Source: Gordonia aichiensis NBRC 108223
GTDB taxonomy: Bacteria; Actinomycetota; Actinomycetes; Mycobacteriales; Mycobacteriaceae
Length of the DNA stretch: 64,000 nt
Reading direction: 5' to 3'
Assembly: GCF_000332975.1 (NCBI RefSeq)
Contig: NZ_BANR01000001.1
Location: 1-64,000 of the forward strand
Shown here: in pieces, positions 14,882-32,846 of the stretch
Layout: each line of letters starts with the position of its first letter
How positions within the stretch are numbered: the stretch's first letter is position 1
Position numbers and translations under genes: made by a program
Notes under the pieces: model-generated
The model's input: only the letters and a program-made list of their open reading frames with translations
Database searches by the model: none
What the model was told of the DNA's origin: nothing

Positions 14882-15838
14882 TCAGTCCTCGATCGTCTCC
14901 AGCTGTCCGAAGATCTCCTCGCGACGATCTTCGAACTGCGACGGGAGCTGGAAGCGCATGCCGAGTTCCTGCGGCGACTCGTCGCAATCCCAGCCGCCAT
15001 CGGCGTGGGTGACAGCGATCTCGAACAGTGCTCCACCCGGTGAACGCACATAGACCGACTTGAAGTACTTGCGGTCCTTGAGCTCGGAGATGTCGGTGTA
15101 GCCTGCACCTTCGATCTCGAACTTGAGCTCGTCCTGGTTCTCGAGGCTCGACGCATTCCATGCGAAGTGGTGGTAGGTGCCTGCGCCGTAGCTCCAGGTG
15201 CCCTGGTCGTCGGTGCGGTTGCCCACCAGCTCGACCCAGTTGCCCACCTTCTCGTTGCCGACGCGGAATGCGGCGCGGTCGCCGTCCTCGATGATGTCGC
15301 CCTGCGAGTAGAAGACATCCTCGGCGAAGTCGACCATCCGGTCCGGGGTGTGGGCGTGGATGCCGACACCGTGGATTCCGTGGATCGCATGCTCCTGCGG
15401 AACACCGTTGCCCGAGTAACCCTCACGTGCATCGTTGTCGTTGGTGACAAAGACGTACTCCAGGCCCGACGGATGACGGAATGCCAAGCGGCGCTGCCCG
15501 AACACCTCGATGTCCTGGACGTCCTTGACGTCGTGTTCGGTCAGACGGGAGTGCCAGTAGTCGAGCGAGTTGGTGGGCACCGACAGCAACACCTCACGCG
15601 CCTGGTTGGTGCCGGGCTTGCCGAAGCGACCCTGCTGCGCCCACGGGAAGGTGGTGATCACGCTCGACGGATCGCCGTTGGCGTTCGAGTAGTAGAGGTG
15701 GTAGATCGGCAGCGAGCCGTCGAACAGCACGGTGCGCTTGATGAAGCGCATACCGAGCGTCTTGACGTGGAAGTCGACGTCCTCCTGCGCGCCTGCGACG
15801 GAGAGGGTGACGTGGTGTGAACCTTCGACAAAGGCCAT
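14882..15838 (-). CDS. VOC-family ring-cleaving dioxygenase (PcpA/LinE/MhqO type)
   Basis: A 318-aa protein with two vicinal-oxygen-chelate modules. Candidate Fe(II) ligands fall where PcpA has them: His8/His9 (GSHHVTLS), His223/His224 (GTYHHFAWN) and Glu273 (ALFEIAVTH). The family opens hydroquinone-type rings by 1,2-cleavage to 4-hydroxymuconic semialdehyde or acyl-halide equivalents. It is the last gene of a minus-strand catabolic run (ADH, SDR, monooxygenase, dioxygenase) and has its own regulated-looking leader with an 18-bp direct repeat at 15857-15898. Downstream pathway enzymes (aldehyde dehydrogenase, maleylacetate reductase) lie on the plus strand of the island. Confidence 0.88.
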   Translation of the reverse strand: MAFVEGSHHVTLSVAGAQEDVDFHVKTLGMRFIKRTVLFDGSLPIYHLYYSNANGDPSSVITTFPWAQQGRFGKPGTNQAREVLLSVPTNSLDYWHSRLTEHDVKDVQDIEVFGQRRLAFRHPSGLEYVFVTNDNDAREGYSGNGVPQEHAIHGIHGVGIHAHTPDRMVDFAEDVFYSQGDIIEDGDRAAFRVGNEKVGNWVELVGNRTDDQGTWSYGAGTYHHFAWNASSLENQDELKFEIEGAGYTDISELKDRKYFKSVYVRSPGGALFEIAVTHADGGWDCDESPQELGMRFQLPSQFEDRREEIFGQLETIED

Positions 15839-21102: not shown

Positions 21103-21948
21103 CTATCGGTTGGTCGTCGCTGCACCGTGCCGGTGCAACAGGTCGAGATCGGTGACCGAGACATCCCACAATCCCGCACCGCCCGCGTTGCGATTGGTGT
21201 TCTGGATGTTGGCGCCCCCGTCGACCGAGAGGATCTCGCCGGTGACGTAGGTGGCGTCGTCGCTGAACAGGTACGCCACCGAACCGGCGATCTCCTCCGG
21301 ACGTCCCGGCCGTCGCATCGGTGAGGTACCGGCGCGACGGATCATGTCGTCGCGCCCTGCGGGGCCGAAAATCTGCGTCGGGACGATACCCGGCGCGATG
21401 CCGTTGACCCGCACTCCGATGGGGCCGCCGTAGACGGCCGCGCCGTGGACGAGCCCGATGACTCCGTGCTTCGACGTCGTGTATGCCAGTAGATCGTTGC
21501 TGCCGCGCAATCCGGCGATCGACGAGGTGACGACGATCGCGCCGTGCCCACCCGTCTTGTGGAACTCGCGGAACGCGCCACGAACTCCGAGAAACGGGCC
21601 GCGGAGGTTCACGGCCATCACCGCATCCCACTCGTCGACAGAGACGTCGACCAGGGGGGCAGTCGATCCCGCGATACCGGCGTTGAGGAAGTGGAAGTCC
21701 ACCGCGTCGAATCGATCGAGCGCGGCGGCGAGGTAGCTGTCGACGCCACTCTCCGTGGTCACGTCTGCGCCCACCCCGATCGACTCGGTCGACAGCGCGG
21801 ATGCGACCTCACGTGCAGCGGCTTCGTCGAGGTCGACGGCGACGATGTGCACACCTTCGTCGGCGAGGCGGACGGCGGCAGCGCGCCCGAGACCACCTGC
21901 GGCTCCGGTGACGACCGCCACCCGCCCGTTCAGTCCGGTTATGGTCAT
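21103..21948 (-). CDS. Short-chain dehydrogenase/reductase, last gene of five-gene operon
   Basis: An SDR of 281 aa: TGAAGGLG cofactor loop (residues 15-22), NAGIAG, and YTTSK active site. The C-terminal YVTGEILSVDGGANIQNTN is the usual substrate/cofactor end. Its start overlaps the stop of the fusion gene by 4 nt. In this operon it follows two 3-hydroxyisobutyrate-dehydrogenase-like domains, a cupin and a metallo-beta-lactamase protein, so it probably oxidises a hydroxyl intermediate in the same unassigned pathway. Confidence 0.88.
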   Translation of the reverse strand: MTITGLNGRVAVVTGAAGGLGRAAAVRLADEGVHIVAVDLDEAAAREVASALSTESIGVGADVTTESGVDSYLAAALDRFDAVDFHFLNAGIAGSTAPLVDVSVDEWDAVMAVNLRGPFLGVRGAFREFHKTGGHGAIVVTSSIAGLRGSNDLLAYTTSKHGVIGLVHGAAVYGGPIGVRVNGIAPGIVPTQIFGPAGRDDMIRRAGTSPMRRPGRPEEIAGSVAYLFSDDATYVTGEILSVDGGANIQNTNRNAGGAGLWDVSVTDLDLLHRHGAATTNR

Positions 21949-23651
21949 GACTGTGAACCTCCGATGGCATCGGGCGACGACGCCGACCGACGTGACCGGC
22001 GGTCGAGTTCGTCTGCGAGAATGGGAAAAGCGGTCGTCGCGGACTGGAAGCCCAGCGCGCTGGAGATCTCCATCACTTCAAGGATCTCCTCCTTCGTCGC
22101 GCCGTGGTGAATTGCGTTGCGAATGTGTAGCTTCCAGCCTTTGACGTAGAGATGTGTCGCGGCAGAGTCGAATGCGATGTAGATCAGTTCTTTGACCTTG
22201 GGCGAGAGGGACCCCGTGCGCCACGGCAATGCCGAGAACTCGGTGTACGCCTCGAACATCTCGGGATCGAGTTCGAGGATCTCGTCCCAGAACTCATGCC
22301 AGTAGCCACGCTCGGTGGTGAACTGCTCCTGCAGGGACCGCTGGTATGAGGTCAGTTCGGCCGGCGTGTCGCGCAGACCCTCCTCCTCCAGCACCTCGGT
22401 GAGCAGGGGCACACCGATGTTCATCGCGTGGATACCGAGCGTTGCCGTCAGCTCGATGGTCTCCATGATCTCGTCGGGAGTAGCACCGTGGTCGAGTGCG
22501 GCCCTGATGTGTTGACGAACGCCGGGGCTGTGCAGGTGCGTCGCGGCGGCGTCGACCGCGAGGTAGATCAGTTCCTTGGTCTTGTCGTCGAGGTGGTTCT
22601 TCTTCCACGGAACCTCGGCGAGGTCGGCGTAGGCGGCGAGAAAGGCCGGCCGCAGGTCGAGAATCGACTGCCAACCGTCGTCCCATGTCCCATGAATATC
22701 CCGAATGCGTTGAGCGAGCGCCTTCTTCGATGCTTCTGAGTCCGCTGCGGAATCATCGGCCACGGGATCGTCGACGTTGTTGTCGATCCAGCGTGCGATC
22801 TCCGTGTGGTCGGCGCCCGGTTCCAGCTCGGTCTGTGCACGCTCCCACATCGCGACCGCCTGCTCGCCGAGGAGCGCGGGCGCACCCACTTTCGCGGCCA
22901 GGTCGGTGGCGATCTTCATGTCCTTGAGCATCAGCGCGAGCGCGAAGCCGGAGTCATAGGTGCCGGGGAGAATGAAGTTCGGGTACTTGTTGTCGGTCGA
23001 GCCGCTCCGTCCGCTGGACGTGTTCACCATGTCGATCAGCACCGCCGGGTCGAGTCCGAAGCGCTGTGCAGCGGCGGCTGCCTCCGCAGTTGCCAACAGG
23101 TGTGTTGCCGAGAGCAGGTTGTTGATCGCCTTGATGGCGTGCCCGGCTCCGACGTCGCCGCCGAGCCGCGGGGTGCCCAGCGACTCCAACACGGGGCGGA
23201 CCGTGTCAAAAGCCTCGGGGGAGCCGCCAACCATGATCGTCAGCTTGCCGTTCTCTGCGCCCTTGACCCCACCGGAGACCGGTGCGTCGACCAGGGTCAC
23301 ATCGGCCGCGGACAACGTTTGTGCGAGTTCGCGAGTCGACGCCGGATCGGACGAACTCATGTCGACGACGACACTTCCGGGCGCGAGTGCAGCAGCGTCG
23401 AGCAGATCCCGGACGACGGCTTCAACGACAGTGGAGTTGGGCAGCATGAGGATGACCACCGACGCCGCCCGTGCCGCCTCGACGGCCGTGACCACGCCGG
23501 TACCCCCGTTCGCGGTCAACCGATCCCGAGCCGCGGGGTCGAGGTCGAAGCCGGTGACCCGATATCCGGCGCCGATCAGACGCGCGGCCATCGGGGAGCC
23601 CATATTGCCCAGTCCGATGAGTGCGATGTCGGGAAGGACCTCGGTGCTCAT
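21945..23651 (-). CDS. Fusion: 3-hydroxyisobutyrate-dehydrogenase-like domain plus two carboxymuconolactone decarboxylase domains
   Basis: A 568-aa three-domain protein. Residues 8-292 are a beta-hydroxyacid dehydrogenase (GLGNMGSPMA nucleotide loop at 13-22, substrate loop DAPVSGGVKGAENGKLT at 122-138, catalytic Lys174 in GHAIKAINN). A linker (about 293-320) leads to two CMD/AhpD-like repeats at 333-424 and 462-549 (TKELIYLAVDAAATHLH, VKELIYIAFDSAATHLY). Neither repeat has the CxxC of AhpD peroxidases, so they are more like gamma-carboxymuconolactone decarboxylase. The gene overlaps both neighbours by 4 nt. It suggests a dehydrogenation/decarboxylation pair on one chain. The single reading frame is uninterrupted, so it is not a sequencing artefact of two genes. 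Confidence 0.9.
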   Translation of the reverse strand: MSTEVLPDIALIGLGNMGSPMAARLIGAGYRVTGFDLDPAARDRLTANGGTGVVTAVEAARAASVVILMLPNSTVVEAVVRDLLDAAALAPGSVVVDMSSSDPASTRELAQTLSAADVTLVDAPVSGGVKGAENGKLTIMVGGSPEAFDTVRPVLESLGTPRLGGDVGAGHAIKAINNLLSATHLLATAEAAAAAQRFGLDPAVLIDMVNTSSGRSGSTDNKYPNFILPGTYDSGFALALMLKDMKIATDLAAKVGAPALLGEQAVAMWERAQTELEPGADHTEIARWIDNNVDDPVADDSAADSEASKKALAQRIRDIHGTWDDGWQSILDLRPAFLAAYADLAEVPWKKNHLDDKTKELIYLAVDAAATHLHSPGVRQHIRAALDHGATPDEIMETIELTATLGIHAMNIGVPLLTEVLEEEGLRDTPAELTSYQRSLQEQFTTERGYWHEFWDEILELDPEMFEAYTEFSALPWRTGSLSPKVKELIYIAFDSAATHLYVKGWKLHIRNAIHHGATKEEILEVMEISSALGFQSATTAFPILADELDRRSRRSASSPDAIGGSQS

Positions 23652-24088
23652 CGGAGCGCTCCCACGCTGCTCTGGTCGGATGAGTTCGTGTCGGCCTCGA
23701 CCGTCTCGGCCGCCGCCACGAAGTCGGCGTCGTCGAGTGGGTCGGCCCAGGTGGTGACTCCCAGGGAGATGGCGGTGTGCGTCATGAACGACTCGGCTCC
23801 CGCACCGTGCCAGTGTTTCTCACCGGGTGGGCACCAGACCGTGTCGCCGGCCTTGAGCCTGCGGACCTCGGTTTCGGTCCCGATCAGACCTTCGCCTGCC
23901 AGGACCTGCAGGATCTGGCCGTGCTCGTGGTGATGCCAGAAGGTGCGCGCCCCGGGAGTGAAGTTGACCGAGTTGATGGTGATCCCATCGGTGGCGGGCA
24001 TGGTCAGGTAGTTGTACACGTTGCCGGTGAACTTCGACCCTGTCTTGCCTGCGGTGCCCGAGTGGTCGAGGGAGTGAATGAGTTTCAT
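23648..24088 (-). CDS. Cupin-domain protein
   Basis: A 146-aa single-domain cupin. Metal-binding motif 1 is TFWHHHEHGQILQVLAGEG (H52-H54, H56, Q58) and motif 2 is GDTVWCPPGEKHWHGAG (H92, H94). The fold resembles the CMD-associated (R)-mandelonitrile-lyase/cupin family that is often linked to carboxymuconolactone decarboxylases. The ATG overlaps the stop of the upstream dehydrogenase (ATGA). It may be a metal-dependent isomerase or lyase. Confidence 0.87.
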   Translation of the reverse strand: MKLIHSLDHSGTAGKTGSKFTGNVYNYLTMPATDGITINSVNFTPGARTFWHHHEHGQILQVLAGEGLIGTETEVRRLKAGDTVWCPPGEKHWHGAGAESFMTHTAISLGVTTWADPLDDADFVAAAETVEADTNSSDQSSVGALR

Positions 24089-25023
24089 GCGTCGTCCTCG
24101 TTCGTGGTGGGTTGTAGGCGAACGTTCCCGGAGAGGTCGCCGATCGCGTCGACGACCGTGTTGCTGATGCGGTCGGCGTAGCCGAGTTGGATCGCGAGGC
24201 CGAAGGCGGCAACCGGTGCGGACGAGTTGGGACTCGTGACGCCGAGACCCGCGGCCAGATCGCAGTACGCGAGAACGTCTTTCATCATCAACGAGTTGGT
24301 GAGACCGCCTTCGAGGTAGTCGCCGTGGATGATCTTCGGGAAGCGGTTCTGGGTCGCGAAGTTGACGCCGGAACTGCTGTTCAACACGTCGAGCAGTACG
24401 TCGAGGTCGAGCCCGGCCTTGCGTCCGGCGACCATCACCTCGGCTGTCGCCGACAGCGAGATCGCGTTGAGGAAGTTGTTCAGCAGCTTCACGGTGTGGC
24501 CCGCGCCGACGTCGCCGCAATGAAAGACCTTGGCGGAAAAGAGATCGAGGATTGGGCGTGCGGATTCGAGAACGTCCCGCTGGCCGCCGACCATGAGGGT
24601 CAGCGCGCCCTTTTCCGCCGCAGCTGCTCCGCCGGAGATCCCGGCATCGAGTAGGGCGACCTCGCGTTGGGCGAGTTCGGCCGCGAGCACCTTGGTGGAC
24701 GCGGGTTCGGAGGTGCTGAGGTCGACGATGATCTGTCCCGGCGAGGAGTGCTCGAGGATTCCGTCGGCGCCCCTGACGACGCTCTCGACGATGCGGCTGT
24801 GCGGCAGCGACAGCAGCACGACGTCCGCGCTGCTGATGACATCCTTGACCGAGGTGGCTCTGGTGGCGCCGCAGTCGGCCACGTTGGCTGCCACGGTGTC
24901 GAAGCCGATCACCTCGACCCCGGCGTCGACGAGGCAGCGTGCCATGCGACCGCCCATGTTGCCCAGGCCGATGAATCCGACGGGACCGCCACGGCCCGAC
25001 TTCTCTGATGTGACGTCAGACAA
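24085..25023 (-). CDS. Beta-hydroxyacid (3-hydroxyisobutyrate-like) dehydrogenase
   Basis: A 312-aa NAD(P)-dependent dehydrogenase: GLGNMG at 19-24, substrate loop DAGISGGAAAAEKGALT, catalytic Lys179 (GHTVKLLNN). It is the same family as the N-terminal part of the neighbouring fusion protein but without CMD domains, giving two such enzymes in one operon. It overlaps the MBL gene by 8 nt upstream and the cupin gene by 4 nt downstream. Confidence 0.9.
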   Translation of the reverse strand: MSDVTSEKSGRGGPVGFIGLGNMGGRMARCLVDAGVEVIGFDTVAANVADCGATRATSVKDVISSADVVLLSLPHSRIVESVVRGADGILEHSSPGQIIVDLSTSEPASTKVLAAELAQREVALLDAGISGGAAAAEKGALTLMVGGQRDVLESARPILDLFSAKVFHCGDVGAGHTVKLLNNFLNAISLSATAEVMVAGRKAGLDLDVLLDVLNSSSGVNFATQNRFPKIIHGDYLEGGLTNSLMMKDVLAYCDLAAGLGVTSPNSSAPVAAFGLAIQLGYADRISNTVVDAIGDLSGNVRLQPTTNEDDA

Positions 25024-25885
25024 CGTCTGCTCCTCTCTGTGCGGCTGCGACGCAGCGCGATGGTGTTGGCGTAGGGGCGATGACGACCGCGAACTCTGCG
25101 GTGTCGTGCGCGGGGAAGCGCGTCATGACCTCCGGATCGTGGCCGGGCACCAGGATGGCGTTGCGCTCGTCGACGATGCGCTTCATCGTGTCGAAGCCGG
25201 CGTACATCGCCTCGAGGTCGGCGACGACGAGGAACGGCATGTCCCGCTCGATCTCCTCGTAGTAGTGCGTCGCGTCTGAGCTGAGCAGGACGGTGCCCAC
25301 CTCGGTGTTGACCAGGACGATCGCCTGCCCCGGGGAATGACCGCCGAGTTCGATCAACTCGATTCCCGGAGCGATGTCAGAACGCCCCTCGAAGAAGGTC
25401 ATTCGTCCCTGGCGTGCGATCTCGCCGAGCAACTCGAGCTCCCGTGTCTCGGCAGAGTGTCGAAACTGCAAGCGATGCGCCATCTCTCCGGTCCAGAAAT
25501 CGAACTCGGTCTTCGGGGTGATGATCGGCGACCGCGGGAACAGGTCGAGGTTGCCGGCGTGATCGTAGTGAGCGTGGGTCAGGATCACGGTGGCGTCATC
25601 AGGGTCCACGTCGAGGGCTGTGAGTGCATCAGCGGGGTGGATGAGGTGGCCGCGTTGGCGTGCCCGCCCGCCCTCGACGCTGTATCCGGTGTCGACGACG
25701 AAGGTGCGCTGAGCGTTTCGCACGATCCAGATGAAATAGTCCATGCCGATCGGGCCATCGGGCTCGTCGTAGAGATGATGATTGAGATACACGAGGCTAC
25801 GCAGCGTCTGCCTCGACGCGTAGCGCACTGCGAGCACCTCGTAGACGTCGTCGTCCATCAGGTTCACCGGATTTCCGTTATGCAT
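25016..25885 (-). CDS. Metallo-beta-lactamase-fold hydrolase (lactonase-like)
   Basis: A 289-aa MBL-fold protein of the N-acyl-homoserine-lactonase-like group. The metal motif HAHYDH is at 104-109, followed by a later His (GHSPGQAIV), Asp (LLSSDATHYYEE) and His (LVPGHDPEV). It probably hydrolyses a lactone. It is the first gene of a five-gene overlapping operon (MBL, dehydrogenase, cupin, fusion, SDR), so a lactone intermediate of that pathway is a more likely substrate than a quorum signal. Confidence 0.87.
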   Translation of the reverse strand: MHNGNPVNLMDDDVYEVLAVRYASRQTLRSLVYLNHHLYDEPDGPIGMDYFIWIVRNAQRTFVVDTGYSVEGGRARQRGHLIHPADALTALDVDPDDATVILTHAHYDHAGNLDLFPRSPIITPKTEFDFWTGEMAHRLQFRHSAETRELELLGEIARQGRMTFFEGRSDIAPGIELIELGGHSPGQAIVLVNTEVGTVLLSSDATHYYEEIERDMPFLVVADLEAMYAGFDTMKRIVDERNAILVPGHDPEVMTRFPAHDTAEFAVVIAPTPTPSRCVAAAQRGADVV

Positions 25886-25910: not shown

Positions 25911-26077
25911 TGTCATACGGTAAGGCAATATCCGGCCGATGCCTATGGCGTTGATCGACGGCAGCTGATCTGTGCGCAAATCTTAAGCCGGACAGCGCGA
26001 TTTCTAGATCTCCTTACCCCGAGACGTCAATAGGCTGAGCGTTGGATCAGACCGTCATGACTCGGATATATGACAAT
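25911..26077. promoter_or_regulatory. Divergent promoter region with two ATTGTCAT-like motifs
   Basis: The 208-bp gap between the MBL operon and the CMD gene holds TGTCATAC (25911-25918) and TATATGACAAT (26067-26077). The latter matches one half of the perfect palindrome ATTGTATGACAAT found upstream of the zinc-ribbon/hyuA genes, and a site upstream of the ADH at 32983. These are the candidate sites of the GntR regulator at 32133-32846. Confidence 0.4.
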
Positions 26078-26093
26078 CAATGCAGGAGGAACC

Positions 26094-26492
26094 ATGAAGT
26101 TCGACGACACGCACGACGAGACGTACCGCGAGGGCATCGAGATGCGCAAGGCGGTGCTCGGGGCGGAGCATGTGCAACGCTCCCTCGACAACGTCACCGA
26201 GTTCTCGCGGCCCATACAGGAATTGGTCACCGAGTACTGCTGGGGTGCGGTGTGGACGCGTCCAGGGCTCGATCGCAAGACCCGGAGCCTGCTGAACCTC
26301 GCCATGCTCACAACACTGAATCGCGGGCATGAGTTGGCAGTTCACGTTCGCGGCGCTGTCACCAATGGCTGCACCGAGGAAGAGATCCAGGAAGTGCTGA
26401 TCCAGACCGCGATCTACGCCGGAGTGCCCGCGGCATTGGAGTCGTTCCGGATCGCAGAGGCAACCCTGTCGGAGATCCGCGTCAACGCCTGA
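26094..26492 (+). CDS. Carboxymuconolactone decarboxylase family protein (PcaC-like)
   Basis: A single-domain CMD protein of 132 aa with the PcaC-like blocks WGAVWTRPGLDRKTRSLLNL, NRGHELAVHVRGAVTNGCT and IYAGVPAALESF. The ATG at 26094 has an excellent AGGAGG 5 nt upstream, so the earlier in-frame ATG is rejected. In the protocatechuate pathway PcaC decarboxylates 4-carboxymuconolactone. The pcaBDGH genes are absent here, so the substrate may differ. It is divergent from the MBL operon, which also encodes two CMD domains. Confidence 0.88.
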   Translation: MKFDDTHDETYREGIEMRKAVLGAEHVQRSLDNVTEFSRPIQELVTEYCWGAVWTRPGLDRKTRSLLNLAMLTTLNRGHELAVHVRGAVTNGCTEEEIQEVLIQTAIYAGVPAALESFRIAEATLSEIRVNA

Positions 26493-26537: not shown

Positions 26538-27533
26538 CTACCGTGCCGACACGGATACCGCGTCCGGGGTACGTCGCGTAGTGGTGCGTGCGCGGAATGC
26601 CGCGGGCGTCTCGCCGGTGGTGCTCTTGAAGACCTGACCGAAGTGCGATGCACCGGAAAAGCCCCAATGCGCCGCGATGGTGGCTAGCGGCACGTCCACC
26701 TTCATCGGGTCGGCGAGCTCTTCGCATGCGCGCGCTACCCGGCGCTCCCGGATCCGCGCCGCGGCGCTCTGTCCGCTGAGTCGGAAGATGTTGTGCACGT
26801 GTCGAACTGAGAGATGATGAGCGGCCGCGAGCTTGTTGACGTCAAGTCCGGGATCCGGCAGGCGCTCCTCGATGTGACGATACATCTCCCGCAGCAGGAC
26901 GACGTGCGGGTCGGATTCCGACCAGGTCCCGTCGCAGTCGTCGAGGATCACCGCCAGTCCGAGTTGTGCGGCGCTTCGCATGACCCGGTAACGCTGGTGG
27001 CCGTCGAACATCTCATAACCTGCAACGATGGTGTTCAACAGATGGGTGAGCGCGTCGGTGAGTGACCCCTGACCCGCACCGATCGTCGTGAGACCGAACT
27101 CTGCGAGGGGTATCTCGACCTCACTCCACGGAATCGACAAGTCGATGCAGTGGTTGTCGGGCGACGCCGCCGTCGTGGCCGTCCGGCCGGTGAGCACTCC
27201 CGTGTCACCGGGCCGCAGCGTCGTTTCGGTGGTTCCGGAACCAACTCTGCTGTGCCCGGCGAGCTGGACTCGCACCACCGTCGACGATGAGTCCGAGAAC
27301 GCGGGGAAGCTCTGTCCGGCAGAGCCTTCGGAGAGTATCTCGGTGACCCGGACGTTGGTTGCCGGAGCTGTGAGCCGGCGCGTCGCGGGTGCTCGGCTCG
27401 GACTAGGGTCCGACAGGCGGGCGCCAGTGCGTCCACCCGACAGTGGTGTGCGCTTTTGGCCCATGCCTGCGCATCGATCAGCCTCTACATTCATCTGTGA
27501 ACCGCGCAACACAGGACCTCCGGTGTGACTCAT
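26538..27533 (-). CDS. AraC family transcriptional regulator, copy 2
   Basis: A 331-aa regulator. An AraC_binding_2-like sensor half (VVRVQLAGHSRVGSG, TLRPGDTGVLTG) is followed by a double HTH (LDVNKLAAAHHLSVRHVHNI, LATIAAHWGFSGASHFGQVF, GETPAAFRAR). The start is uncertain: ATG 27533 or ATG 27494, neither with a strong ribosome-binding site. It is divergent from the zinc-ribbon/hyuA genes. A perfect 13-bp palindrome lies just 12 bp upstream of 27533. Confidence 0.88.
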   Translation of the reverse strand: MSHTGGPVLRGSQMNVEADRCAGMGQKRTPLSGGRTGARLSDPSPSRAPATRRLTAPATNVRVTEILSEGSAGQSFPAFSDSSSTVVRVQLAGHSRVGSGTTETTLRPGDTGVLTGRTATTAASPDNHCIDLSIPWSEVEIPLAEFGLTTIGAGQGSLTDALTHLLNTIVAGYEMFDGHQRYRVMRSAAQLGLAVILDDCDGTWSESDPHVVLLREMYRHIEERLPDPGLDVNKLAAAHHLSVRHVHNIFRLSGQSAAARIRERRVARACEELADPMKVDVPLATIAAHWGFSGASHFGQVFKSTTGETPAAFRARTTTRRTPDAVSVSAR

Positions 27534-27544
27534 GACTCGTCATG

Positions 27545-27557
27545 ATTGTATGACAAT
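27545..27557. promoter_or_regulatory. Perfect palindrome ATTGTATGACAAT, probable GntR-type operator
   Basis: The dyad ATTGT-ATG-ACAAT lies between the divergent AraC gene and the zinc-ribbon/hyuA genes. Its form (TTGTnnnACAA) is what FadR/FCD-type GntR regulators commonly bind. Close relatives occur upstream of the GntR gene itself (TGTACGACAA, 32874-32883), the ADH at 32983 and the CMD gene at 26094. Confidence 0.5.
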
Positions 27558-27637
27558 CGTACAACACGGCCGGGAGTGGTGCGGTCGAGCGGCGATCGTC
27601 CGAATGCGATCGAGACGTCTGAAAGGAATCGGTAGCG

Positions 27638-27892
27638 ATGCACAACTTTCCACGGCCGACGCAGGAGCGGCTCTACGCCCAACGGTCACCGGTCGACGAG
27701 ACCTGCCCGGAATGCGGCAGTTCAACGGCGGTCGCCGAGTACCGGGTGCTCGGCGAGGGTGGCTGGTGGGACGTCACCAAGTGCCAGGACTGTCTGTACA
27801 CGGTGACCAAGAGCAGGACGCCGCGGCTGGGTTCGTTCACACCTGTCGTACCCGCCAGGACAGCCACTGGCGTCGGGCAGCGGGGGGAGTGA
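27638..27892 (+). CDS. Small zinc-ribbon protein preceding hyuA
   Basis: An 84-aa protein with two knuckles, C23-C26 (TCPECGSS) and C49-C52 (TKCQDCLYT), expected to bind one zinc. The start ATG has AAGGAA upstream and the gene ends 5 nt before the hyuA ATG, so the two are coupled. Small zinc-ribbon subunits occur with hydantoinase-related acetone/acetophenone carboxylases. A similar accessory role is plausible, but the homology is not established here. Confidence 0.75.
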   Translation: MHNFPRPTQERLYAQRSPVDETCPECGSSTAVAEYRVLGEGGWWDVTKCQDCLYTVTKSRTPRLGSFTPVVPARTATGVGQRGE

Positions 27893-27897
27893 GCGCG

Positions 27898-29931
27898 ATG
27901 TTCGGAGTTGATGTCGGCGGCACCTTCACCGATGTCGTCGCGGTGCGCGACGGCAAGATCTCGGTGACCAAGGTGCCCAGTAGTCGTTCCAATCCCCCTG
28001 CGCCGGTTGTCGAAGGTGCCAAGAGACTCGGCGTGGCCGGTAGCACCGTCTTCAACCACGCCAGCACCATGGGTCTCAACGCGGTCATCGAGCGACGACT
28101 GCCCAAGATCGCATACCTGACCACAGACGGTTTCCGAGACGTCCTCGACCGAGGAAACGTGCACCGCCCGCTCGACGCGCAGACCGATCCCGCATGGCGT
28201 CGGTCGTTCGGCGATGCCAACCGGCCGTTGGTGCCGAGATACCTGCGGCGCGGCGTCGTCGAGCGTGTCACCGCCGACGGAAACGTCCTCATCGAACTCG
28301 ATGAGGACAGCGCGCGGCATCAGCTCGAGGTGCTCGGCAAGTGCGGCGTCGAAGGCATCGCCATCTGCACCATCAACAGCTACGTCAACCCGGCGCACGA
28401 GATCCGGCTCAGGGAGCTCGTGCACGAGGTTCTCGGTGGCGACATGGTGGTGTCCATCTCCTCCGAGACATCGCCCTTGGCAAAGGAATACACACGCGCG
28501 TCGACCACGGTCATCGATGTCTTCATGAAGCTGATCTTCACCGACTACTCGGCCCACATCGATCGCGAGCTACGGGAACTCGGTTTCGACGGCGAGTTGA
28601 ACTTCGCCGACTGTGCCGCAACACTTCTGCCCTGGCAGGAGGCGCTCAATCGCCCGTTCCGCATCCTGTTCGCCGGGCCGGCGGCAGGCACCATCTCCAG
28701 TGTGCGACTCGGCGCCGCCATCGGAGAGAACAACCTCCTCTGCGCCGATGTCGGCGGGACATAGACGGACGTGTCGTTGATCGTCGACGGAAAGCCGTTC
28801 ATCGAGAACACCTTCGAGCTCGAGCACGATCTCGTGATCAATGCGCTCTCGACCGAGGTCTACAGCGTCGGCGCAGGCGGCGGCAGTCTGGTCGGGATCG
28901 CGCCGTCGGGCGGCATCCAGGTCGGTCCGGGGTCGGCAGGTGCGGAGCCAGGACCGGCCTGCTATGGACGCGGGGGCACCCAGCCTGCGGTGACCGACGC
29001 CTGTCTGCTGATGGGAATCCTCGACGGCGAGGCGTTCGCCGCGGGTGAGATGTTCCTCGACAAGGAGGCTTCGCGCGCAGCGTTCGAAGCACTCGACACT
29101 CCCATCGAGTTCTCCGAACGAGTCGCCTCGGCGTACTGGCTGGCGGTGTCGAACATCGCCGAAGAGGTTCTCAACGTTGCCGTCCGGCACGGCGTCGACA
29201 TCCGTGACTTCGCGCTCATGTCCTACGGAGCCGCTGGACCGATGCTCCTGCCGGCGGTGCTGGACCTGCTGCCACTGAAGAACGCAATCATTCCGCCGTA
29301 CCCGGGACTCTTCTCCGCGCTCGGACTGCTCTCGACGGATCAGGTCTTCTACGAATCACGTAGCGCATACATGGTGTTGAGTCCGGACAACGCCGACCAG
29401 GTCGCCGAGGTCTTCGACGAGATGGAGCGCACCCTGCGTGAACGCGTGGGCGCCGCGGGCGCAGACCTCAGGGTCAGGCGCAGTTTCGACGGACGCCTCC
29501 TCGGTCAGAGTTGGGAGACCCCCTTCATCGAGATCACCGGTGACACGATCACGCAGGACACGGTGGGCGACATGATCGCGGCATTCCACCGTGCCTACGA
29601 GGATCGCAACGGGCATCGCTTCGAGCAGATCCCGGTGGAAGGGGTCACCTATCGGGTCGAGTTGATCGTCCCCTCGGAAAAGGTGGAGTACATCCCCGCC
29701 GAGAACCGGGCACCATTCACCGCGTCGCCCGACAGATTGATCACCCTGGAATACCTCACCGATACTCCGGTCACGGCCGGCGAGTACCAGCGGGCGGAGC
29801 TCGCCGTGGGTGCGACCGTCGAGGGGCCCGCGGTGATTCGCGAAGACCTGTCCACCACCATCGTCCTGCCCGAGCAGACGGCCCTTGTCGGGCGGTGCGG
29901 CGAGCTCATCATCGAAAGGAAGACGAAATGA
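27898..29931 (+). pseudogene. hyuA-type hydantoinase/ketone carboxylase subunit interrupted by an in-frame amber codon
   Basis: The reading frame matches the HyuA/N-methylhydantoinase A family over its whole length (about 677 codons). It opens with the ATP loop GVDVGGTFTDVV, continues to CADVGGT, hits TAG at 28762-28764, and resumes in the same frame with TDVSLIVDGKPF through to TGA at 29931. The family sequence at the stop is DVGGTSTDV, so a serine codon has become amber inside the second nucleotide-binding loop. Translation could restart at GTG 28771, but splitting the active-site loop should abolish activity. Nonsense suppression is an alternative. The neighbouring hyuB is also broken, which supports a decayed locus. 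Confidence 0.85.
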
Positions 29932-30765
29932 CACTCGTCGAACAGACTGCCCCCGTGGAGTCGTCGCAGATCCGTGATCTCGACGCCGAGATGTTCACTC
30001 ACCTCTACGGGTGCGATCGATACACCGCCACCGTTCTGAGCAACCGTTTCGACTACCTCGTCGAACACATGAGTGCTCGCCTGCTGACCGGTGCATTCTC
30101 GCCGGTGCTCCGCGACTTCTACGACCTCGCGTGCACCATCAGCGGACCCACCGACCTCGATTATCTTGTGCCTGCGGCAAGTAACGGCATCGTGCTGATG
30201 GCGGGCACCGCACTGGACGGGGTCGCCAACACGGTCGAGGAGTTCGGCCCGGAGAACCTCGCCGAAGGCGACGTGCTCATCTCCAACGACCCTTACCGCA
30301 CGGGCAACCACAACAACGACCTGACGTTCATCCGGCCGGTCTTCGTCGACGGCAGGATCATCGGCTTCGTCAATCTCAATGCGCACCAACTGGATATGGG
30401 TGGTGTGGTGCCGGGCGGCTTCAGTGCAACGAAACGAAACGTCTACGAGAACGGGCTGGTGATCTCGCCACGCCTCTTGGTGCACAAGGGCGAGAAGGTC
30501 CCCGAGACCTGGAATCTGATCTTCGACAACGTCCGCATGGCCGACATCCTCTACCCGGACATGCTGACGATCTGCTCCAGCCTCGAACTCGGCGAACAAC
30601 TGTTGCTCGAGTCGGTCGAGCGATACGGACTGGCGGCGGTGCACGGCACCATGCGCTACGTCTGCGACCTCGGTGCCGAATCCATGGCAACCGCGTTGTC
30701 GGTGCTTGCCGATGGCGACTGGACGGGATGCGAGCAGATCGACTGCGACGGGGTCGACGACACCG
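29928..30765 (+). pseudogene. hyuB-type subunit, N-terminal part only
   Basis: An ATG overlapping the hyuA stop (ATGA) opens a HyuB/N-methylhydantoinase B frame. The family blocks ISNDPYRTGNHNNDLT, FVNLNAHQLDMGG and ADILYPDMLTIC are all intact up to EQIDCDGVDDT at codon 279. Beyond that the frame loses all resemblance to the family, whose members are usually 550-600 aa. The missing C-terminal portion appears, inverted, at about 30822-31073. The breakpoint is at or just after 30765. Confidence 0.82.
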
Positions 30766-30821
30766 CTGATAGCTCATGCACTGGCTGTCGGCATCACCGA
30801 ACTGGTTGGCGCCGTATGGGC

Positions 30822-31073
30822 CTACCTCTCCACCACACTGCAGCGCCGAGACCCACTGTGTTCCGTCCCGCAGTTCACCGAACGCGGTATTGCGTTCTTG
30901 TACCGCAGCGATGTCAGGGAGTGTCCGGCGTCGAGCTTCCACACCGTATCCCGGAGCACCGCGGCGCCTCCGCGGAAATGACCGGGCCCAGCGGAATCGA
31001 TCTTCATCTCATGTCGCAGAACAACGGCAGGGGCGTTCTTCTCGATCGCCTCGATGGGAGGTGCGACGCCATT
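30822..31073 (-). pseudogene. Inverted internal/C-terminal fragment of hyuB
   Basis: Read on the minus strand from 31073, the sequence encodes NGVAPPIEAIEKNAPAV, LRHEMKIDSAGPGHFRGG and DTVWKLDAGHSLTSLRYKN. This is the characteristic HyuB C-terminal block (RYELRPDSGGPGRFRGG type). It is opposite in direction to the hyuB N-terminus at 29928-30765, and about 200 residues that should lie between the two parts are missing. The right edge abuts the truncated monooxygenase frame at 31076. The identity of the 30766-30821 stretch is unclear. Confidence 0.7.
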
Positions 31074-31075
31074 GG

Positions 31076-32128
31076 CTGGTTCCGCGCCGCTACGGTGGCT
31101 TCGAGATGGGTCTCGACGACTTCATGCGCCTCGGCATCGAGATCTCGCGTGCCGACCCTGGGGTGGGGTGGAGCTTCATCCTCGGCGCGGGTCACGCCTA
31201 CCACGTGGCATGCTTCTTCGGCGAGCAGGCGCAGGAGGAACTGTTCGCGGGAACGTTCATCGCTCCCGGTCGAACGGTGCCGTCGGGCAAGGCCGTCAAG
31301 GTATCGGGCGGCTATCGACTCAGCGGACGTTGGGACTACTGCTCCGGTTCCGCGTGGAGCACTCATGCGATGGTGCTTGCACGGACAGAGGGCGCTGACG
31401 GCGAAGCAGGTGAGCAACGGATCTTCATCATCCCCCGGTCCTCCTACACCATCCTCGACGACTGGGGCGGCGACCAGACCATCGGCATGCGTGCCTCGAG
31501 TTCGAATTCGATTACCGCCGAGGATGTTCTGGTTCCCGATCACCTCAGTGTCGTCTACGATTTCCGCGACCACGTGCTCGGCACCGATGGCACACCCGGG
31601 TATCGGCTGCACAAGAATCCGATGTATCTCGGTCGTACGCTCACCTACTTCAACGCAGAACTGGTGGCGACGCAGGTCGGCGCGGCATGGGCGGCGATCG
31701 ACCAGTTCGAGGAATTGATGGAGGCGCGCCCGGCCAGCTTCCCGCCGCGAACCCCGCGCATCCAAACCCCTGAGTACCACCGGTGGTTCGGAAGTTTGCT
31801 GGCACAGATCGATTCGGCGGAGAACCTACTGATCTCCGCGGTGCGGCAGCACGAGGCCCTCGGTCAGAAATGGGTGGATACGGGCGAGGAGTTCACGCCG
31901 GAGCAGGATGCACGCCTGCGCGGAATCGTGCAGACCGCGGCCCGGATCGCCAACGATGCCGTGGATCTCGCGTTTTCCACTGCGGGGAGCACGTCGGCCA
32001 AGAAGGGCTCGTCGATGGAGAAGTACTACCGTGACGTCGCGATGTACAAGACGCACATCGCCGCACAGTGGGACGTGACATTCAATTCGCTGTCGCACTT
32101 CCACTTCGGAGAACCGCTGGTCTTCTGA
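31076..32128 (+). pseudogene. 5'-truncated acyl-CoA-dehydrogenase-fold monooxygenase
   Basis: The frame is homologous to the monooxygenase at 15933-17168, starting in the middle of the conserved block LVPRRYGGFE (LLRPRTFGGYE in the intact copy) and running to the normal C-terminus (GSTSAKKGSSMEKYYRDV, FNSLSHFHFGEPLVF). About 62 N-terminal residues are missing, and the junction joins an inverted hyuB fragment. The first in-frame ATG (31106) would lack the start of the fold. The rest is uninterrupted, so inactivation looks recent. Confidence 0.78.
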
Positions 32129-32132
32129 CGAG

Positions 32133-32846
32133 CTAGACCGCGAGTCGCCGCAGGCTTCGCACCGCGTTGTCTGCGGCGGCTCGCAGGTGGTCGTCGTAGA
32201 GCTCTTCAGCGCGGTCGGCGTCGCCGTCTCGTGCTGCGTCGACAACACCGCGGAGTTTGTCGATCGAGATCGAATGGTCGGCTGGCATGCCCTGAGCTCG
32301 CAGCACGCGCAGTCGGCTCTGCAGATTCCCGACCAGGGATTCGAGAACCGGGCTGCGCGCGCCAGCCACGATCACGGCGTGATAGTCGTCCACGGCGTCG
32401 AGAATGCGTAGTGGCTCGCCGGATTCCGTCGCTTCGGCGAACGCCTCCGCGGCCGCAGCCAGTGCGATGATCTGCGACTTTGCCGCACGCTCGACGAACC
32501 GTCGGACCAGGAGTCCCTCGAGACGACGACGCGCCTCGTACAGCTCCTGTGCTTCCTCCACCGACGGGGAACTGACGATGGCGCCCTTCTGCGGCACGAC
32601 GGTGATCAGCCCCTCGGAGGTCAACTCGCGCAGCGCCTCACGCACCGTCGTACGGGAGACGCCCAGTTGTTCGATGAGTTCTCGTTCGATCAGACGTTGC
32701 CCGGGAGCGAGCGTGAAGTCGAGTATGGCCGCGCGCAGCGCGTCGATGACCTGTTCGCGTAGCGGAGCAGCCACCCGGCCAACGGGTCCGGGCGTCCAAC
32801 TGTCGGCAAGCGCCCTGCTCGGCGACACTTCTCTACTCGCAGCCAC
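32133..32846 (-). CDS. GntR family regulator with FCD ligand domain
   Basis: A 237-aa regulator. The winged HTH is at residues about 26-92 (LREQVIDALRAAILDFTLAPG, LGVSRTTVREALRELTSEGL). An all-helical FCD domain follows (YEARRRLEGLLVRRFVE, DYHAVIVAG, DHLRAAADN) whose Asp/His residues usually bind a metal and an organic acid. It is convergent with the truncated monooxygenase and divergent from the ADH at 32983. Its own promoter has TGTACGACAA, suggesting autoregulation. Confidence 0.9.
   Translation of the reverse strand: MAASREVSPSRALADSWTPGPVGRVAAPLREQVIDALRAAILDFTLAPGQRLIERELIEQLGVSRTTVREALRELTSEGLITVVPQKGAIVSSPSVEEAQELYEARRRLEGLLVRRFVERAAKSQIIALAAAAEAFAEATESGEPLRILDAVDDYHAVIVAGARSPVLESLVGNLQSRLRVLRAQGMPADHSISIDKLRGVVDAARDGDADRAEELYDDHLRAAADNAVRSLRRLAV

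Follow-up and report, generated by a model that had tools for sequence, protein, structure and literature searches.

What would an enzyme do that carries a dehydrogenase and two carboxymuconolactone decarboxylase (CMD) domains on one chain? The question is raised by a gene of Gordonia aichiensis NBRC 108223 (21945..23651, minus strand), one ATG-started open frame of 568 amino acids here designated D-CC. It lies within the 64,000 nucleotides analysed, referred to as the window (contig NZ_BANR01000001.1, positions 1 to 64,000). D is the HIBADH-type dehydrogenase half (residues 8–288) and CC the two-CMD, or dualCMD, half (about residues 302–553). The fusion is genuine: two enzymes that have separate genes in most of the relatives examined are joined in one Gordonia protein. 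The evidence leans towards D-CC being a bifunctional catabolic enzyme with linked steps, formed by the joining of two neighbouring operon genes.

One frame, two folds

The open frame and the Pfam matches agree with the first-pass annotation that a beta-hydroxyacid dehydrogenase and two tandem CMD domains share a single frame. NAD_binding_2 matches residues 8–160 (E 1.9e-46, 158.5 bits, gathering cut-off 21), NAD_binding_11 matches residues 168–288 (E 1.2e-39, 135.7 bits, gathering cut-off 30), and CMD (PF02627) matches in 2 stretches (E 2.7e-25). There are no cysteines among the 568 residues, therefore an AhpD-type CxxC is impossible. The earlier statement that the repeats lack this motif holds in its strongest form, and the absence of the redox pair rules out CC as an AhpD-type peroxidase.

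The Gordonia otitidis NBRC 100426 counterpart (L001) is of equal length, has an intact frame and is 99% identical over residues 1–568. The two genes have 42 synonymous and 6 non-synonymous differences, and both halves are under purifying selection. For Gordonia, assembly error and pseudogene status are ruled out by this second genome and by the substitution pattern; either may still apply to a third fused locus, L009, which is from a metagenome-assembled genome.

The two halves are connected by a linker at residues 289–312 (22716..22787, minus strand), in which no stop is present and the predicted local distance difference test score (pLDDT) is below 50 at residues 295–299. Codons 281–331 contain zero stops, and the sole in-frame ATG, GTG, TTG or CTG is a GTG at codon 297. 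Separate proteins could arise from the frame by initiation at this GTG, which is within the linker, or by linker proteolysis. At the start of CC in L009, an in-frame GTG has an AGGAGG stretch 8 bases upstream, and on this sequence the L009 locus may also make CC separately. In Gordonia no Shine-Dalgarno-like stretch was seen by eye in the 20 bases preceding codon 297. Since the Gordonia junction lacks a stop, an in-frame ATG and any clear ribosome site, one polypeptide is expected, and production of two proteins is very unlikely.

Both the dehydrogenase and the CMD folds are present in the predicted structure of the D-CC monomer. The predicted template modelling score (pTM) is 0.55. Confidence is weak in the helical half of D, where pLDDT is 38–80 from about residue 171 to 300. 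The D tails were misplaced when fused and unfused rows were aligned globally. Shortened D rows were used in the alignment for this prediction; in a script test of the shortened-row set (n=11), 12 D and 28 CC residues were still misplaced.

As judged by its residues, the catalytic motif of the HIBADH family is intact in D (22788..23630, minus strand; bounds from Pfam), which has GLGNMG, D36, DAPVSGG, K174 and N178. D was aligned, in 23 rows of D and D2 sequences, with D2 being a second HIBADH-type dehydrogenase of the same operon; 15 of 17 checked positions are identical in all 23 rows. The exceptions are positions 124 and 125, where 15 rows have P/V and 8 have G/I. Residues G13, G15, G18, S126, G127, G128, K174 and N178 of D are kept in 23 of 23 rows and are presumably the Rossmann glycines, the SGG of the substrate motif, and the catalytic Lys and Asn. 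The fold, the GLGNMG and DAPVSGG motifs and the catalytic K and N are shared with M. tuberculosis HIBADH (5y8g-n) and 2-hydroxymethylglutarate dehydrogenase (3cky). D-CC differs from these in bearing a C-terminal dualCMD and in missing the cut-offs of all NCBIfam dehydrogenase equivalogs listed, the best being the 3-hydroxyisobutyrate dehydrogenase model TIGR01692 (218.0 bits, cut-off 291.6). D is probably an NAD-dependent hydroxy-acid dehydrogenase, acting on a beta- or gamma-hydroxy acid.

The first CMD domain of CC spans residues 335–404 (22440..22649, minus strand) and the second about residues 463–532 (22056..22265, minus strand; Pfam stretches, with bounds from alignment). Among 21 aligned rows, E360 of the first domain is conserved in 17, and H372 and H381 in 19 each. 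Conservation is higher in the second domain, with T499, H500 and H509 in all 21 rows and E488 in 20. This pattern suggests that CC holds a functional site, most clearly in domain 2, which may be catalytic. The tandem CMD is an already known unit. CC aligns with 2Q0T, a solved dualCMD from Paraburkholderia xenovorans (bxe_b0980), over 249 of 249 residues at 1.4 A with 51% identity, sharing its two CMD domains and its fold; however, 2Q0T stands alone (263 aa), whereas CC is fused behind a dehydrogenase. According to the accessible text of PMC5615479, dualCMD proteins occur in bacteria, archaea and eukaryotes (1202 collected, 540 kept after removal of near-copies), and 2Q0T and 4G9Q form homotrimers or trimer rings.

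Fused, adjacent and separate genes

A total of 24 CC loci were examined by script, following a search that kept the best 80 of 269 relatives; further loci may exist. Six other loci (L098–L103) have a single CMD domain and L105 is the L009 locus again; these and, apart from L106, the further matching genomes of the L009 family are outside the 24. D-CC is in one frame in three loci: the window, L001 and L009, the last a metagenome-assembled actinobacterium. In nine others D is a gene of its own directly before CC (L002, L003, L004, L006, L007, L011, L095, L096 and L106). Seven of the nine show a four-base overlap (ATGA or GTGA) between the D stop and the CC start, the genes are 17 bases apart in L002, and in L106 they abut in the same frame, with a single TAG followed directly by ATG. 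A GntR regulator gene is between D and CC in three loci (L008, L010 and L097), and a D-type gene 37–47% identical to D is elsewhere in the locus in six (L012, L013, L087, L088, L090 and L093). No D was seen in the remaining three (L005, L053 and L104, the last of only 3.7 kb); in L005 it is D2 that precedes CC. Close copies within the 24 are L090 with L093 and the window with L001. Comparison of the fused and adjacent-gene loci therefore indicates that the architecture is a joining of neighbouring operon genes, rather than a new enzyme class.

The same comparison bears on the possibility that unrelated steps of one operon were joined by loss of a gene boundary, without kinetic coupling. This has appreciable likelihood, although it is not the favoured explanation. 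It is consistent with the occurrence of D-CC in only 3 of 24 CC loci, two being near-identical Gordonia, with the gradation from overlapping genes through the abutting TAG-ATG of L106 to one frame, and with the low confidence at which the linker is predicted. It also fits the frequent pairing of D with PcaC and, in proteobacteria, of CC with D2 and cupin. Purifying selection on both halves speaks against it, though such selection is also expected of two separate steps. Repeated joining would likewise count against a neutral event. The fused rows of Gordonia and L009 require 2 changes in both trees and across the bootstrap range, as do 96 and 112 of 500 label shuffles, about a fifth. The supported branches force only 1 change, with 9 open forks in each tree. 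The join may, on these trees, have happened twice, separately in Gordonia and L009, yet one origin is also compatible with the well-supported branches.

The fusion is rare, being restricted to very few genomes among those searched. The genome samples overlap and differ in queries and thresholds, and those at genus, order, phylum and class level each count the source genome itself. D-CC is matched in 2 of 59 genomes of the genus at 1e-60. At the order level CC is matched in 9 of 397 genomes at 1e-40, over both CMD domains in 4 and over one domain only in 5. Matches at 1e-50 were found in 2 of 396 genomes of the phylum and 1 of 394 of the class. Within the family to which the L009 genome belongs, and with just 6 candidates scored in each genome, D or CC is matched at 1e-70 in 19 of 200 genomes; two matches span nearly the whole query, one of them with an internal TAG. 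From the other matching genomes of this family L106–L109 were looked at, and L107–L109 had no match to the searched motif. Among 2286 matching plasmid records, 4 have 80% of the query at a single site, split in each case into 3 pieces, and the annotated record H1, one of these four, has separate genes. A wide family of D-CC fusions was not seen across the genus, order, phylum, class, L009-family and plasmid searches. The distribution of D-CC within Gordonia (2 of 59 genomes) points to acquisition by transfer or to frequent loss.

The first-pass annotation knew of no characterised enzyme with this architecture, and the open-licence papers listed by the literature searches showed none in their titles or opening abstract lines; nor did these show any description of the fusion or of its operon. 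What appears to be new is the joining of a HIBADH to a dualCMD, the dualCMD unit and CMD fusions to catabolic enzymes being known. D-CC is thus a real and rare architecture in an operon for which no description was found, yet it is explained by adjacent-gene joining and its novelty is fairly modest.

The operon and a proposed reaction sequence

D-CC is the fourth gene in a minus-strand operon ordered MBL, D2, cupin, D-CC, SDR, in which successive genes overlap by 8 or 4 bases. The MBL gene (25016..25885) encodes an AHL-lactonase-like hydrolase of the metallo-beta-lactamase fold and overlaps D2 (24085..25023) by 8 bases; its nearest models are those of AHL lactonases, yet it is far below every curated cut-off listed. 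The cupin gene (23648..24088) overlaps the D2 stop and the D-CC start by 4 bases each, and a further 4-base overlap (ATGA) joins the D-CC stop to the start of the SDR dehydrogenase gene (21103..21948). A divergent gene encodes a PcaC-like single CMD protein (26070..26492, plus strand) with a TIGR02425 score of 153.1 bits, just below the 155.7 cut-off. The same operon set is found in Streptomyces, Kribbella, a Rhodococcus metagenome-assembled genome, Arthrobacter and a Microbacteriaceae metagenome-assembled genome.

The favoured reading, of linked catabolic steps, builds on the single frame, the purifying selection, the intact dehydrogenase motif, the two folds and the operon, and from these proposes a substrate, an order of steps, a decarboxylation and possibly channelling. 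The MBL lactonase would open a lactone to give a hydroxy acid and D would oxidise the hydroxyl group so freed. CC would then act on the resulting oxo-acid or a close successor, most simply by loss of CO2, as PcaC does with carboxymuconolactone. As a cysteine-free dualCMD, CC would form a CMD trimer ring and work through an E...TH...H site, mainly that of domain 2. Fusion would give the two activities a fixed 1:1 ratio and could hold a reactive oxo-acid near CC.

CC might not be a decarboxylase at all. Other candidate roles are those of isomerase, retro-aldol or hydrolytic lyase, and scaffold subunit. This variant of the linked-step reading is weighed separately and is a tentative but substantial possibility. 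CC has no cysteine and hence no AhpD peroxidase chemistry, and where it has TH...H the PcaC-like protein of the window has GHELAVH. With the PcaC model TIGR02425, for which the cut-off is 155.7, D-CC reaches 42.5 bits. The CMD domain is common to D-CC, PcaC and the PcaCD and PcaDC fusions of the curated models, in which the joining of CMD to a catabolic enzyme is a known theme. D-CC differs from these in its far lower PcaC score and in having a dehydrogenase as partner, not an enol-lactonase. Decarboxylation is favoured by the family and fold match, the defined lyase reaction of the CMD family being that of PcaC.

A more specific form of coupling is a two-site oxidative decarboxylase, in which D would pass the oxo-acid to the dualCMD ring of the same chain, serving a lower pathway fed by hydroquinone cleavage in some actinobacteria. 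In 6-phosphogluconate dehydrogenase oxidation and decarboxylation take place on one active site; here they would be split over two. D presumably forms dimers. Together with CC trimers, as described for dualCMD proteins in the accessible text of PMC5615479, such a chain would build a hexamer or cage. This two-site reading, taken as a whole, is rather unlikely.

Several observations weigh against linked steps on D-CC. D is directly behind a PcaC-like CMD gene in 13 loci (L003, L004, L006, L007, L008, L010, L011, L012, L013, L087, L089, L092 and L095). This is as frequent as its position immediately ahead of CC or in one frame with it (12 of 24), and in L012, L013, L087, L089 and L092 D has no CC beside it. 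CC follows D2 and cupin on the plasmids of Acidiphilium, Sodalis and Paraburkholderia. The pairing of D with CC may therefore reflect adjacency alone, and it is possible that D feeds the PcaC-like enzyme while D2 feeds CC. The low pTM and the weak helical half of D mean that the model is not firm on how the two halves lie. In addition, the accessible text of PMC5615479 reports no function or reaction for any dualCMD.

Coupled oxidation and decarboxylation, or lactone handling, had been suggested from the architecture. The lactone-handling setting is borne out by the AHL-lactonase-like hydrolase of the operon and the PcaC-like CMD beside it. The step from fusion to a coupling of oxidation with decarboxylation is not supported, since in 21 of 24 CC loci D and CC are not in one frame (3 of these 21 with no D seen) and both have the other partners described above.

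The natural fusion to a well-understood enzyme class narrows what this dualCMD could act on. So does the compact recurring operon of lactonase, two HIBADHs, cupin and SDR, with a hydroquinone dioxygenase nearby in some actinobacteria. Fusion and operon context together make the question of dualCMD function testable with few purified proteins.

The operon has the same kinds of step as vitamin B6 catabolism, which uses an SDR dehydrogenase, the MBL-fold 4-pyridoxolactonase and a later dehydrogenase and decarboxylase. This is an analogy only: MBL scores 39.6 of 325 for 4-pyridoxolactonase, SDR 149.7 of 325 for pyridoxal 4-dehydrogenase, and D-CC 27.6 of 500 for FHMPC dehydrogenase.

L092 is from a Gordonia genome that is probably G. 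otitidis, since its D-CC has the same contig position as that of L001. It is a second PcaC-D pair, elsewhere in that genome, with a D 54% identical, and CC is absent from the 3.8 kb read. The pair of L089, on Rhodococcus rhodochrous plasmid pGD02.2.2, is near a maleylacetate reductase, two P450s, a VOC protein and a phospholipase-like hydrolase; CC was not found in the stretch examined.

Catabolic surroundings

A VOC protein resembling hydroquinone 1,2-dioxygenase is encoded at 14882..15838 (minus strand). Its best solved relative is 4huz, 2,6-dichloro-p-hydroquinone 1,2-dioxygenase (E 4.9e-66), and it also matches 3oaj, MhqO (E 7.5e-45). The oxygenase component of an HsaA/HpaH-type flavin monooxygenase (31061..32128, plus strand; matches below cut-offs) is followed by a GntR-family regulator gene (32133..32846, minus strand), to which the GntR genes between D and CC in L008, L010 and L097 are 50–57% identical. 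Relatives of the dioxygenase (68%) are nearby in L003, L004, L006 and L007, of the monooxygenase (66–71%) in these and L002, and of the iron alcohol dehydrogenase of the window (55%) in L003, L006 and L007. None of the three was found in the L008 and L010 stretches. Judging from these neighbours, a phenol that has been hydroxylated and cleaved probably feeds the lower module in some actinobacteria.

The related module on the plasmids of Acidiphilium, Sodalis and Paraburkholderia (L087, L088 and L090) has NIPSNAP and MFS genes in each case; the Sodalis and Paraburkholderia versions also have an aldehyde dehydrogenase gene. These neighbours suggest that the proteobacterial module is perhaps fed by an imported compound. 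No paper pairing NIPSNAP with carboxymuconolactone decarboxylase was found in the open-licence literature searched.

The promoter scan found 0 sites, with 0.7 expected, and 1 terminator-like site was found, with 2.5 expected. There are no tRNA genes in the window and G+C is near 0.62–0.66 throughout, therefore neither gives a sign of an island edge.

Positions 14882–45000 form a large catabolic region. It encodes the hydroquinone dioxygenase, two HsaA-like monooxygenases, a flavin reductase, a RibB-like DHBP synthase, iron and zinc alcohol dehydrogenases, an aldehyde dehydrogenase, a P450 with a ferredoxin-reductase-like protein, and two AraC and one GntR regulators. A hydantoinase-A-like gene (27532–29931, plus strand) has one in-frame stop ending at 28764, with an open frame resuming in the same frame at 28771. 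The L002 relative has a frame of at least 620 aa, and the window copy looks broken. The hydantoinase-B-like frame (29895–31718, plus strand) matches only positions 1–242 of a 519-position profile before the monooxygenase gene overlaps it. L002 has a 663-aa frame at the matching place, between its hydantoinase-A-like and monooxygenase genes, and the window frame is probably truncated.
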